The translations under genes were made by a program, and so were the position numbers. From assembly GCA_001750925.1 (NCBI GenBank), contig MAXH01000192.1, positions 1-34,944 on the forward strand: a DNA stretch of 34,944 bases. Direction: 5' to 3'. The notes below the pieces were generated by a model. It saw only the letters and a program-made list of their open reading frames with translations. It searched no databases and had not been told where the DNA came from. This document shows positions 2,471-30,682 of this stretch, piece by piece (the stretch's first letter is position 1; each line of letters opens with the position of its first letter). This DNA is from Desulfobulbaceae bacterium S3730MH12. Its GTDB lineage: Bacteria; Desulfobacterota; Desulfobulbia; Desulfobulbales; Desulfocapsaceae.

Positions 2471-2998
2471 TCACTCAAGTTGTATCGTTGAAAAAGTAGT
2501 GCTCAGCTGCGCTGCTTTTTTATTTGAAATCTGATCCAGTATTTTCGCGGCAGCTTTAACTCTCATGTTAGCTAGTAGATCTGCTGCAAGTTGCTGATCA
2601 AGTCCGGTGAGTGCCAGGGATGCTCTCTCCGGAGTCATTTTTTCATATATAGACGCTAACCCTTTGAGCCGTTTTTTTTCTTCTGCTGATTTTGCTGTAA
2701 GAAGTATTTCAATTTTATTTTGAAGTTTCCTGAGTTCTTCAAGCTTATTATCAATTTCAGCTAGTTTCTTATCGACAACATCCCCAAGGGTCTTTAGCTC
2801 CTTTTTTTTCATAACCATTTCTTCCTGTTCTTTACGAATACTTGCTCTTTCCAGGCTGACGACATGGTGCAGCCTTCTTTCCTCTACCGATGAGTATTCT
2901 GCCGCTGCAGGCTGATCGGCAGCATGAAGTGTGGCGCAAGTAGAAAGAAGCAGAGTTGTTGAGGCAAAAATAACGACTGTTTTAGTGAGTATGTTCAT
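2471..2998 (-). CDS. MotE-like periplasmic flagellar protein (MgtE N-type domain)
   Basis: This is a 175-aa secreted protein. It begins with a signal peptide (residues ~1-25, LTKTVVIFASTTLLLS followed by ATLHA), has a long charged coiled coil (about residues 40-115, KKELKTLGDVVDKKLAEID), and ends in a short helical domain with YEKMTPERASLALTGLD and AAKILDQIS. That pattern is characteristic of MgtE-N/MotE-type proteins found in flagellar operons between fliJ and fliK. In Sinorhizobium, MotE is a periplasmic chaperone of a motility protein; here the role is inferred from context. An upstream in-frame extension to 3124 exists but runs through the palindromic repeat at 2999-3158, so I reject it. 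The chosen ATG directly abuts that repeat and has no visible Shine-Dalgarno sequence, so translation may depend on coupling or RNA structure. Confidence 0.75.
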   Translation of the reverse strand: MNILTKTVVIFASTTLLLSTCATLHAADQPAAAEYSSVEERRLHHVVSLERASIRKEQEEMVMKKKELKTLGDVVDKKLAEIDNKLEELRKLQNKIEILLTAKSAEEKKRLKGLASIYEKMTPERASLALTGLDQQLAADLLANMRVKAAAKILDQISNKKAAQLSTTFSTIQLE

Positions 2999-3158
2999 AG
3001 TTGACAAGTTCGTAAAAATTTCAGTTTCAATGGATAAGTAAAAAACTTCATATTGGAGGCGTGCAACTTTTCTATTGTTACTGCGTACATACGGTACGTA
3101 GTAACAATAGAAAAGATGTAACAACGAACAAGATGAAGACTTTTTACGACGCCATCAT
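2999..3158 (-). repeat. Dispersed palindromic repeat, fullest copy (A), with 22-bp central hairpin
   Basis: It lies between fliJ and the motE-like gene, in operon orientation, starting five bases after the fliJ stop and ending at the motE-like ATG. Left end: GATGGCGTCGTAAAAAGTC. Right end: TTTTTACGAACTTGTCAA. The centre (3067-3115) is an inverted repeat with 22-base arms starting CTTTTCTATTGTTACT, a 5-nt loop and a single G.U wobble. Outside the hairpin the two halves also mirror each other (GTAAAAAGTCTTCAT versus GTAAAAAACTTCAT), so the whole unit is an imperfect palindrome. Its right 67 bases match copy B (15962-16052) at about nine positions in ten, and its left 38 bases match copy C (19547-19628). 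It encodes no protein. Confidence 0.85.
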
Positions 3159-3160
3159 AG

Positions 3161-3598
3161 TTAGATTCCAGCATCGTGTCTTATGGTCGCAATTTCATCG
3201 AGCATTGCGACCTCTTTTTTATCGAGGTATTTTTTCCATGCTCGATTCTGTTGATCTTTCAGGCTCGCCATAATTTGTCTGTTTTTGCTTTTTTCTATAA
3301 GATTCTCCTGCATTTTATTTCTGTTTTCAGATTTTTCATGCAGTTTTGTTTTAACACTATGAATATTCTTTTTAAGAAAGAGAATTCTATTCTCGAAATT
3401 AATTAGATCTAAAATCGAAATAGTTTCGTTCTGTAGCTGTTCAATTTCTTTTATAAGGGCGGCAAGATTCCTCCTGTCCTCATCCAGCTTCTGCTGGATT
3501 ATTTTCTCCTGCCGTTTAGCTTCAGCCAGCCGGTGAATGGCGATATCCTCCAATCGTTTTCTATAATCAAGGACAGTGTCAAGGTTGAACGGTTTCAT
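3161..3598 (-). CDS. fliJ: Flagellar export chaperone FliJ
   Basis: FliJ is the central stalk-like coiled coil of the flagellar export ATPase (the counterpart of the F-ATPase gamma subunit) and escorts chaperones. The 145-aa product is almost entirely heptad-patterned helix. It starts MKPFNLDTVLDYRKRLEDIA, the family's typical opening, and ends with a charged DKKEVAMLDEIATIRHD tail, consistent with conserved FliJ features. Length is typical (140-150 aa). It follows fliI with a 29-base gap, the standard order. Sequence conservation is always low in FliJ, so position next to fliI carries much of the weight. Confidence 0.88.
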   Translation of the reverse strand: MKPFNLDTVLDYRKRLEDIAIHRLAEAKRQEKIIQQKLDEDRRNLAALIKEIEQLQNETISILDLINFENRILFLKKNIHSVKTKLHEKSENRNKMQENLIEKSKNRQIMASLKDQQNRAWKKYLDKKEVAMLDEIATIRHDAGI

Positions 3599-12208: not shown

Positions 12209-12613
12209 GGAACGGGGTGAGGCAGATCTAGAGAATCTTGCTCGATTTTGCTGGAGGGTAGATGGGACTGGTTAAACAGGCTGGAAATGTCAGAATGCAG
12301 GTGTGAATTGATTTAACCCGACTAGTCGGAAAACTTTCAGTCTCGCTGGATAAGTGCCATGGAAGTATATTCAACCATGTAATTTTAAACGATCTTTCTT
12401 AATTTCTTGTTTTTTATTACTGAAATTCTGGAGTAAGGCACTAATGGCAAATATATCTGAAAGACTGATATTCAACAGATATTCCTGGAAAAGTTGATAT
12501 GTTCTTAATATATTCTCATCGCTGCCCGATAAGATGAGGAGGCAGTATAAGAATCCATTATCAATTCCTGTAATTATAAATGTGGAGAAAGAATCATAAA
12601 GAATTCTATTGAA
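12209..12613. other. Intergenic region between divergent flagellar operon and CheX-like gene
   Basis: This 400-bp A/T-rich stretch lies upstream of both flanking genes. It contains the repeat copy E (12315-12360) with the 12-base palindrome CCGACTAGTCGG, about 135 bases upstream of the predicted sigma-54 start site. No coding potential and no clear sigma-70 promoter for the rightward gene were seen; its ribosome site is also weak (GGAGAAAG about 18 bases upstream of the ATG). Confidence 0.6.
12315..12360 (-). repeat. Repeat copy E with perfect 12-bp palindrome CCGACTAGTCGG
   Basis: It reads on the plus strand AACCCGACTAGTCGGAAAAC, then TTTCAGTCTCGCTGGATAAG. The same ~46 bases occur in the opposite orientation at 30637-30682 with only a few differences. 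The half TACTTATCCA-GCGAGACTGAAA is recognisably the right part of copies A and B (TACTTATCCA-TYGAAACTGA). A small CATGG/CCATG hairpin flanks the core at 12357-12382. Confidence 0.75.
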
Positions 12614-15476: not shown

Positions 15477-15962
15477 ATGCTGAAAATTCATTTTCTACTT
15501 CTATTCTTAACTTGTGTTATGTGGTTTTCAGAGGGACACGCTGATCCGACTTTTACTGCGGTTGTGACCAAAATCATTGATGGTGATTCTATTGTTGTCA
15601 AAAATGGAAAAAAGTATATAGAGGTTCGATTTTATGGTATTGACTGTCCTGAATGGAATCAGCATTCTGCCACTTTAGCAAAGAGATATATAAAATCCTG
15701 GATATATAAAAAAAAGGTGGTTATTGCACCTCAATACCATGATTCGTATGGTCGACTGGTGGCCTTGATTGAACATAATGGTCAGGATGTCAATGGTGGG
15801 TTGGTTAAATCAGGGATGGCATGGGTTTATCCAAAATACTGTAAGAAAAAGGTTTGTGAAAAATGGCGTGAAGATCAATCAAGTGCTAAAGGTGAGAGCA
15901 GAGGCTTATGGGAAAGTATGGAGCCTGTTCCGCCATGGCAATGGAAAAGAATGCACCATTGA
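15477..15962 (+). CDS. Secreted thermonuclease-like nuclease (SNase family)
   Basis: This 161-aa protein has an N-terminal signal peptide (LLLFLTCVMWFSEGHA) followed by an SNase/TNase OB-fold domain. Visible catalytic features are the DGD calcium-binding motif in IIDGDSIVV, an Arg-containing VRFYGIDCPE (the RxxGIDxPE hallmark), and DSYGRLVA with the second conserved arginine. The family cleaves single- and double-stranded DNA or RNA with Ca2+. The four C-terminal cysteines or charged residues around PKYCKKKVCEKW may stabilise the exported form. No Shine-Dalgarno sequence is obvious. The palindromic repeat copy B begins on the last base of its stop codon. Confidence 0.88.
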   Translation: MLKIHFLLLFLTCVMWFSEGHADPTFTAVVTKIIDGDSIVVKNGKKYIEVRFYGIDCPEWNQHSATLAKRYIKSWIYKKKVVIAPQYHDSYGRLVALIEHNGQDVNGGLVKSGMAWVYPKYCKKKVCEKWREDQSSAKGESRGLWESMEPVPPWQWKRMHH

Positions 15963-16052
15963 TGGCGCCGTAACAATAGAAAAATTGCACGCCTCCAATA
16001 TGAAGTTTTTTACTTATCCATCGAAACTGAGGTTTTTTACGAACTTGTCACC
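15962..16052 (+). repeat. Palindromic repeat, copy B (internally deleted)
   Basis: It starts ATGGCGCCGTAACAATAG, in which the A belongs to the nuclease stop codon, and ends TTTTTTACGAACTTGTCA. The right ~85 bases match copy A (2999-3158) almost base for base, including TTGCACGCCTCCAATATGAA and TTACTTATCCATCGAAACTG. The left half and one hairpin arm present in copy A are missing, so ATGGCG is joined directly to GTAACAATAG. Same orientation as the upstream gene. Confidence 0.85.
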
Positions 16053-16065
16053 ATTGATTAATGAT

Positions 16066-18674: not shown

Positions 18675-19547
18675 ATGAATCAGTTAAAACTTGGGTTGCC
18701 CAAAGGAAGTCTGGAAAAAGCCACCATAGAGCTGTTCGAAAAGGCAGGGTGGCTGATTAAACCCGCTGCAAGAAATTATTTTCCTGAAATTGATGACTCT
18801 GAGCTGGATTGTTCCATATGCCGGCCCCAGGAGATGTCACGGTATGTGGAAGACGGAATGCTTGATGCTGGTATAACGGGAAAAGACTGGACCATGGAAA
18901 ATGAGTCTGACACTGTGCTGGTTTGTGATCTGGTCTACTCCAAGGTGAGCAGGCGACCTACAAGATGGATTGTTGCAGTGGCCGGTGATTCTGATATTGA
19001 GACCATAGAGGATCTTGAAGGAAAGAAAATCTCAACTGAACTTGTAAATGTAACAAGACAATTTTTTGATGAAAAAGGTATTAACGTTAATATTGAATTT
19101 TCATGGGGAGCAACTGAGGCCAAGGTTGTTTCCGGTCTGGCCGATGCAATTGTTGAAGTTACTGAAACGGAGAGTACTATTCGTGCTCATGGTTTGAAGA
19201 TTATTTATGAACTGATGGAGTCCAACACCCAGTTTATTGCCGGCAGGGAGGCATGGAATGATCCCTGGAAGCGTGAAAAAATTGAGAATATCGCTCTTCT
19301 TCTACAGGGGGCACTCAAGGCGGATCGAATAGTTGGATTGAAGATGAATGTTGCAAATGAAAAACTTGAGGAAATTGTCGGAATTCTGCCAAGTATCAAT
19401 GCGCCGACTGTAGCCCCTTTATACAATCAGGACTGGTGTTCTGTTGAAACTGTGGTATCAGAGGATATCGTCAGAGACCTTATCCCAAAGTTGAAGAAGA
19501 GCGGGGCTGAGGGTATTATTGAGTATGCCCTGAACAAAGTCATCTAA
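18675..19547 (+). CDS. hisG: ATP phosphoribosyltransferase HisG (long form)
   Basis: HisG condenses ATP and PRPP, the first and feedback-controlled step of histidine synthesis. The 290-aa length and the C-terminal ACT-like regulatory domain ([19 protein letters not shown]) mark the long, HisZ-independent form inhibited directly by histidine. The N-terminus [22 protein letters not shown] and the PRPP site region ([18 protein letters not shown]) are clear. The ATG at 18675 is chosen because GGAG lies eight bases before it; in-frame upstream starts overlap hisI. Repeat copy C begins at its stop codon. Confidence 0.96.
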
Positions 19548-19628
19548 TGGCGTTGTAAAAAGTCTTCATCTGCTTCGTTGCTGCATATGAAGATTTTTAC
19601 TTAGCCATTTGAAATTATTTTCAACAAG
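19547..19628 (+). repeat. Palindromic repeat, copy C (hairpin deleted)
   Basis: It starts ATGGCGTTGTAAAAAGTC at the final A of the hisG stop codon and continues TTCATCTGCTTCGTTGCTGC, matching the left end of copy A. It then jumps straight to ATATGAAGATTTTTACTTAG and CCATTTGAAA, which match the right part of copy A. The ~70-base central hairpin is missing. It fills the hisG-engB gap and leaves engB without a clear ribosome site. Confidence 0.8.
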
Positions 19629-29695: not shown

Positions 29696-30553
29696 ATGAA
29701 ACAGTCAAAAGAATCGATTGTAAAGATAGGTATGGTTAATTTCCTTATTACTGCACCTATTTACGAAACATGGAAGCGTACTGTTTTACAATCGAACTGG
29801 GAACTGGTGGAAGGTTCTCCGAGAGCGCTCAATAAACAACTTGATGAAGGAGAACTTGATCTGGGTCTTGTGTCCAGCTTTGAGTATGGTGTCCATTCGG
29901 ATAAATATAAAATATTATCGGGACTGTCTTTGAGTGCTACAGGATCAGTGGATGATGCTGGTTCTGTCTTTCTATTTTCTCACGTCCCCCTTGATCAGCT
30001 GAATCAGGCCGAAGTTCTTTTATGCTCACAATCAGATACTTCGGTCGGCTTAGTCAAGATCATTCTCGAAGAATTTATCGGAGTTGTTCCTGTCTATACA
30101 TCGGGAGATGTTTCTACTGTTCAAGCAGAAAAATTTAAAGCTGTTCTCGCCATTGGAGATGATGCACTGCGGATGGTGGCAAAATCGACATATTTGTATC
30201 AGTTTGATCTTGCCGATATCTGGAACCGGGAAACCGGGCTGCCGTTTGTCTTTGCCGTCTGTGCGGTTCGTGATGAATTCTGTCTGGAAAACAGGGAAAC
30301 TCTTGATGAGATCCATAAAGAATTATTGCGCTGCAGGGATGAAGGCGTAAGTGCGCTGGAAGAGATATGCACTATAACTGCATCCCGTATTCCAATGTCG
30401 GTGCGAAACTGCTGTCATTATCTGGAGACAATAGAATATGATTTAAGTGATCAGAAGCAGAAGGCGCTGACTACCTTTTTTGATTTTCTGATCAAGCGCG
30501 GGGATATTGGAAAAAATGCATTGCCCTTAAAGATTTATTCGAACTTGCTTTAG
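29696..30553 (+). CDS. mqnA: Chorismate dehydratase MqnA (futalosine menaquinone pathway)
   Basis: MqnA converts chorismate to 3-enolpyruvyl-benzoate, the first step of the futalosine route to menaquinone. The protein has the periplasmic-binding-protein-like fold of the family: KIGMVNFLITAPIYETW at the N-terminus, then ALNKQLDEGELDLGLVSSFEYG (the domain that recognises the ligand carboxylates), SQSDTSVGLVKIILEEF, and AVLAIGDDALRM. I start at 29696 (about 285 aa, normal length), preceded by GAGGA. A start at 29648 would add 16 residues. No other menaquinone genes (mqnB-E) are nearby. The substrate call rests on family resemblance; related MqnA/MqnD proteins look similar. Confidence 0.8.
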   Translation: MKQSKESIVKIGMVNFLITAPIYETWKRTVLQSNWELVEGSPRALNKQLDEGELDLGLVSSFEYGVHSDKYKILSGLSLSATGSVDDAGSVFLFSHVPLDQLNQAEVLLCSQSDTSVGLVKIILEEFIGVVPVYTSGDVSTVQAEKFKAVLAIGDDALRMVAKSTYLYQFDLADIWNRETGLPFVFAVCAVRDEFCLENRETLDEIHKELLRCRDEGVSALEEICTITASRIPMSVRNCCHYLETIEYDLSDQKQKALTTFFDFLIKRGDIGKNALPLKIYSNLL

Positions 30554-30601
30554 TACCTTACTTCTTAAACCCTGTCATTAAAAATAAGAAATCAAGGAGT
30601 A

Positions 30602-30682
30602 TACCTTGAAATTATGCTGTTCCATTTATTTTCAAGGTACTTATCCAGCGAGACTGAAAAGTTTTCCGACTAGTCGGGTTAG
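30602..30682 (+). repeat. Palindromic repeat copy F with adjacent 10-bp hairpin
   Basis: It comprises a perfect stem TACCTTGAAA/TTTCAAGGTA with an 18-base loop (30602-30639), then TACTTATCCAGCGAGACTG, then TTTTCCGACTAGTCGGGTTA. The last ~46 bases repeat copy E (12315-12360) in inverse orientation. Copy A has the same order: hairpin, then ACTTATCCA, then GARACTGAAA. It lies 49 bases after the mqnA stop and ends about 18 bases before the DUF3108 gene. Confidence 0.75.

Follow-up and report, generated by a model that had tools for sequence, protein, structure and literature searches.

The palindrome that lies between fliJ and a motE-like gene in the flagellar operon of Desulfobulbaceae bacterium S3730MH12 is, with high confidence, a nonautonomous DNA transposon (MITE) belonging to a family spread through the Desulfobacterota. 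It has inverted ends and a 6-bp target duplication, it is short, with no transposase gene inside its 154 bp, and copies with conserved ends are dispersed in genomes while orthologous sites are found unoccupied. On these grounds, the MITE-type mobile unit that the preliminary description had listed among several possibilities is the one retained.

The Element and Its Place in the Operon

The palindrome is confirmed at positions 2999–3158 of the window (the whole stretch of DNA analysed, 34,944 nucleotides) and is strongly folded. It had been given as 160 bp long. The palindrome is real and its extent has to be corrected: because ATAGTT flanks 3003–3156, the claimed 160 bp correspond to a 154-bp element plus one 6-bp duplication. 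Besides this copy A, the window holds two further copies, B and C. The features are the following.

3003–3156, + strand: MITE copy A, complete element of 154 bp; ends from comparison with other copies and from the flanking 6-bp duplication
2997–3002, no strand: target site duplication ATAGTT on the motE side; direct sequence reading, with the 6-bp length backed statistically family-wide
3157–3162, no strand: target site duplication ATAGTT on the fliJ side; direct sequence reading
3029–3156, + strand: conserved core of the family, about 127 bp; covariance model R1 (copy A being one of the 35 rows used to build it), 121.6 bits, E = 1.0e-24, full model length
3067–3088, + strand: left arm of the central 22-bp stem; sequence and folding
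3094–3115, + strand: right arm of the central 22-bp stem; sequence and folding
3161–3598, − strand: fliJ, upstream operon neighbour; PF02050, 53.3 bits, above cutoff
2471–2998, − strand: motE-like gene, downstream operon neighbour, ATG at 2998–2996; PF03448 (MgtE_N), 25.3 bits for a cutoff of 25.9, start region aligned with relatives
15961–16049, − strand: MITE copy B, internally deleted, 89 bp, with duplication ACCATT (15955–15960 and 16050–16055); sequence and similarity search
19546–19609, − strand: MITE copy C, a 64-bp miniature that has lost most of the stem; sequence and covariance model

Several elements of the preliminary description stand as they were given. The element does lie between fliJ and a motE-like gene, the former identified above the profile cutoff and the latter just under it; the 22-bp central stem is fully paired with one G·U; and the outer halves mirror each other, the arms being GTAAAAAACTTCAT and GTAAAAAGTCTTCAT (reverse complement). 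Read on the + strand, copy A shows the R end GACAAGTTCGTAAAAA first and runs to the L end TTTTTACGACGCCATC. This strand folds at −57.0 kcal/mol (z = −5.3), and the − strand, that of the operon mRNA, at −51.3 kcal/mol (z = −4.7). Both are far more stable than shuffled sequences, as 0 of 200 dinucleotide shuffles folded as well in either case. Since the + strand folds better and the operon is transcribed from the − strand, the operon mRNA carries the less stable version. The only frame that stays open across copy A prolongs the motE frame by chance and is broken in a congener (G002). A search of the window against curated Rfam at gathering score returned tRNA only, with no match for the palindrome.

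An SNase-like gene at 15477–15962 owes its stop codon (TGA) to the edge of copy B: the final base of the duplication supplies the T and the two opening bases of the element the GA. The C-terminus of this gene may have been shortened by the insertion. Copy C abuts the stop codon of hisG and has no recognisable target duplication. The window also contains an inverted repeat pair of 115 nt (12330–12444 and 30550–30664, 72% complementarity) that is unrelated to the palindrome.

Ends, Target Duplication, and Dispersed Copies

The ends of the family, GATGGCGTCGTAAAAAGTC and GATGAACTCGTAAAAAGTC, are terminal inverted repeats (in short form GATG...TCGTAAAAA), and the R end, read toward the outside, is GACTTTTTACGAGTTCATC. 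The draft genome from which the window comes (3.13 Mb in 319 contigs) gives 48 DNA-similarity hits, many over query positions 32–159 and few over the whole unit, some of them self-complementary or overlapping. The covariance model, built from 35 cores, also gives 48 hits, which reduce to about 30 distinct core places once both strands are merged. The terminal repeat pattern GATGGCGTCGTAAAAAG has 61 matches with at most one mismatch, for 0 with the reversed pattern used as control. The palindrome is therefore a dispersed repeat, with many partial copies and lone ends, and is not private to the flagellar operon. The preliminary description had made its finding depend on further copies elsewhere in the genome, and with so many of them it survives.

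Direct 6-bp repeats are found at the edges of other copies, such as AATAAA (L003), ATGTGT (L010), and ATAAAT (L011). For 97 exact L ends in other genomes, the 6-mer preceding the element was sought 50–340 bp downstream; it recurs in 70% of the cases versus 9.4% for control flanks shifted by 10–45 bp. The consensus of the duplication is AANNTT, over 6 bp. Of the 133 exact ends, 107 are matched by a partner end no more than 320 bp away.

Some copies depart from this scheme. A 118-bp element with the same ends and an unrelated interior (L045:4934–5052; L122) occurs in several copies in two genomes (G331 and G332), which suggests that different interiors may share one mobilising system. A short insert, CGGAGTCTCGCAGGCTCGCTTAC, with variants such as CGGAGTCTACGCTTAC, recurs in many copies at the same places in the arms of the MITE (L009, L026, L019, L069, and L158:2065–2080), and inserts of this type are found in other genera too (L038, L047, and L129). 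In two copies of the L175 type (L013 and L020) both ends are altered alike (GATGGATTCG/CGAATCCATC and GATGAAATCG/CGATTTCATC), such as correction of one end by the other would leave them. In several genomes a different palindromic repeat, GTCATTCCCGC...GCGGGAATGAC, lies between or inside MITE ends (L159:2020–2110 in G003, L046, L076, L115, and L136).

The core model, with at most eight candidates scored per genome, matches 132 of 395 sampled genomes of Desulfobacterota, from 88 of 246 genera. The ends, with at most one mismatch, are present in 68 of 297 sampled genomes of the phylum, with a maximum of 149 matches per genome, and exact L ends occur in at least 118 stretches of the GTDB genome collection. 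Among the matches listed, all names are Deltaproteobacteria/Desulfobacterota or the unspecific Proteobacteria/Pseudomonadota. A plasmid collection searched for the family gave no match, and viral contigs gave just 1 and 5 exact end matches.

Insertion at the fliJ/motE Junction

On the operon strand the junction reads ...ATCTAACTAT[element]AACTATGAACATA..., and the duplication is AACTAT. The motE-side copy (2997–3002) includes the TAT of the motE start region, and the fliJ-side copy (3157–3162) overlaps the fliJ stop codon TAA (3161–3163). Direct reading of the sequence shows the fliJ stop (TAA) and the motE start (ATG) restored on either side of the element. Both reading frames survived because the target that was duplicated includes the final two bases of the fliJ stop codon together with the opening bases around the motE start, and the operon tolerates the insertion since the duplication rebuilt these two signals.

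Stop codons are found next to elements in other genomes as well. According to mechanical, and thus approximate, ORF calls, 7 of 50 gene 3′ ends next to elements lie exactly 4 bp before the element, 6 of 50 lie at a TGA formed by the junction, and 2 of 50 at a TAA inside the end. The 4-bp class is consistent with a TAA overlapping the duplication, the link between offset and codon being a reading of the consensus. Judged from these sequences, insertion of family elements at stop codons is recurrent.

The site has a history within the genus. G002 has a full element precisely at the fliJ/motE junction, with duplication AACTAT, whereas in G003 one finds a remnant of the element, another inserted repeat, and a changed fliJ C-terminus. 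The other repeat in G003 is GTCATTCCCGC...GCGGGAATGAC, and it helps replace the C-terminus of fliJ, which then reads ...IATIKSSLLRHSRLGGND. Four further congeners (G001, G004, G005, and G006) have the fliJ–motE pair without the element; their unoccupied junctions differ in sequence and are not base-exact preinsertion sites. The MITE entered AACTAT at the junction in a common ancestor of three or more species of the genus. The element of G002 belongs to another subfamily than copy A, a point against the MITE account, which then has to suppose either one insertion whose element was later exchanged by recombination with a different copy, or a repeated insertion into this junction.

A Structured and Polarised Core

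The core is almost always 124–129 bp long. The sequence of its stem varies strongly between subfamilies and pairing is kept: among copies of the genus, 16 of 43 predicted pairs are kept with both sides changed, and the corresponding figures for two sets from the phylum are 15 of 28 and 16 of 30. For a MITE in decay, this core has stayed unusually constant in length and structure, which speaks against a plain MITE account and hints at a constraint.

The two strands of the element also differ. In 86 of 90 elements the better fold is that of the strand with the R end first, by a mean of 9.9 kcal/mol, and for the central stem alone the same holds for 18 of 20 clusters drawn at 65% identity (Wilcoxon p = 3e-4). 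One of the two exceptions contains L034 and L144, in which the core is inverted relative to the ends, so that these also obey the polarity rule. Although related elements are not independent in these counts, the fold polarity of the R-first strand is taken to be real. A strand-neutral count by pair position favours G·U over A·C by 14:4 in the genus set (p = 0.03) and, more weakly, by 20:12 in the phylum set (p = 0.2). A simple C-to-T mutation of one strand as the source of the asymmetry fits poorly with the composition of the central stem, in which the R-first strand has 1552 G and 1120 C, with T close to A. The polarity suggested behaviour like that of integron attC sites, an idea dropped in view of the target duplications.

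These data raise the question of whether the ends are all that matters. Tentatively, and against the balance of the evidence, the core could be a substrate in the life cycle of the element, as structured RNA or single-stranded DNA, with the R-first strand as the functional one. The polarity of whole elements and central stems, the compensatory changes, and the narrow range of lengths all point in that direction. However, the elements share common descent, and mismatches conserved from an ancestor could maintain the asymmetry; the strand-neutral excess, nominally significant in the genus, is slight in the phylum; and correction between the arms of a palindrome could produce compensatory changes without any function. 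It is likewise rather doubtful, though worth stating, that a polarised single-strand structure (RNA or DNA, R first) serves mobility or maintenance throughout the phylum while the sequence of the stem changes.

The Mobilising Enzyme

The MITE was presumably moved by a DDE-type transposase acting in trans on its inverted ends. No autonomous element with the ends of the family was found in the genomes examined, either at DDE_Tnp_1 and rve loci or between paired ends, and this counts against the MITE account. None of 32 DDE_Tnp_1 loci and none of 30 rve loci is flanked by family ends, these profile searches covering two transposase families, which makes the result a gap in coverage rather than a sign that the enzyme is absent. 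No transposase ORF lies next to the 26 exact ends that have no partner, roughly half of them being cut by contig ends, and paired ends in two genomes enclose only MITE-sized spacings or nontransposase DNA. Two longer stretches between ends were rejected as autonomous elements: that of 1.2 kb in G244 is actually two opposite MITEs, and that of 398 bp in G334 has no transposase-sized frame.

Comparison with Known Repeats

Palindromic, intergenic, and in high copy number, the family recalls the REP/REPIN repeats. The latter are units of 20–40 bp according to PMC3733652, and here one finds 154 bp and full target duplications. Hence, the REP-type label that had been offered alongside the MITE one does not fit an element several times longer that duplicates its target, and it is very improbable that the palindrome belongs to the REP/REPIN type and owes its mobility to a RAYT (Y1) transposase.

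The resemblance is closer with ERIC (or IRU), the 127-bp intergenic MITE of enterobacteria, which is also an imperfect palindrome found in transcribed regions, with a long RNA hairpin and variants carrying internal insertions. The core of the present family is also about 127 bp, the likeness being one of description in which equal length may be a coincidence. ERIC differs by its TA termini (PMC2229807, as a general statement for most such repeats); the TA-type duplication is not found here, where the target is the 6-bp AANNTT and the ends are other. The Correia elements (NEMIS) of Neisseria are about 105–155 bp long, have terminal inverted repeats, form a hairpin in transcripts, and lie near genes, but they belong to another host lineage, in which processing by RNase III is known (PMC10969869). 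By analogy, the family resembles ERIC and Correia as a short, transcribed hairpin MITE, a likeness that does not imply membership in either.

By lineage and by insertion in an operon, the closest precedent is Chunjie, a MITE of Geobacter uraniireducens. It comes from the same broad lineage and is reported in an operon that it does not disturb (from the title of a 2008 Genetics paper cited in PMC10969869). Its size, 178–235 bp (PMC10969869) and the only property compared, as against about 154 bp here, speaks against identity. In the open literature searched, no paper contains the end sequence and no description of the family was found under Desulfobacter or Geobacter with MITE. Relative to that literature, this is a new family of a known kind.

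A Role in Regulation?

The preliminary description had also suggested that the palindrome could tune the relative expression of its neighbours or stabilise 3′ ends. Neither suggestion found positive evidence. No terminator-like site was found in the element, and the one promoter-like match equals the shuffle mean. Relative to co-directional genes, orientations are 16:16 in one set and 15:12 in another, that is, a total of 31 L-first and 28 R-first as mRNA strand, a balance that speaks against selection for a role in cis regulation. Just 2 of 67 and 4 of 45 elements fall within a called frame. Sister species, moreover, have at this site a copy whose interior was swapped for another or is largely gone.

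The palindrome might still be, whatever its origin, a selected RNA hairpin that acts in cis to set fliJ against motE, through RNase processing or protection of a 3′ end. The operon strand folds strongly, the site is still occupied in three species, and there are precedents in ERIC and Correia elements, whose transcribed copies undergo processing by RNase E or RNase III (PMC10969869, PMC2229807). Yet the operon strand is the less stable of the two, the 28:31 orientations show no preference across the family, the element of G003 is mostly gone or replaced next to a changed fliJ C-terminus, and four congeners have the gene pair without the element, all of which makes such selection improbable. 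A general selected cis-regulatory role of the family is not supported, and an effect of copy A in particular on expression is possible by analogy with those processed elements. The probability that the palindrome is due to chance or to an assembly artefact is negligible, given copies in 132 of 395 genomes and an occupied orthologous site in an independent assembly (G002).

As a MITE, the element would now form in the operon mRNA a long hairpin spacer of 160 nt that splits a formerly close fliJ/motE junction. If translation of fliJ and motE was coupled before the insertion, this spacer may have weakened the coupling. Any altered motE translation or mRNA processing would then be a by-product of the insertion and not the raison d'être of the element.

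Implications

The ends, the 6-bp target rule, the core model, and the distribution define a MITE family for the Desulfobacterota, with which annotators could account for thousands of palindromes between genes, and for some gene ends that are truncated, in this phylum. The family also shows how a transposon can slip into operons and leave the genes unbroken when its target rule overlaps TAA stop codons. Conservation and strand polarity of the interior would not be expected of a passive MITE and raise the question of how the element moves; if the reading of a polarised core were true, this would be a MITE with a functional structured interior.
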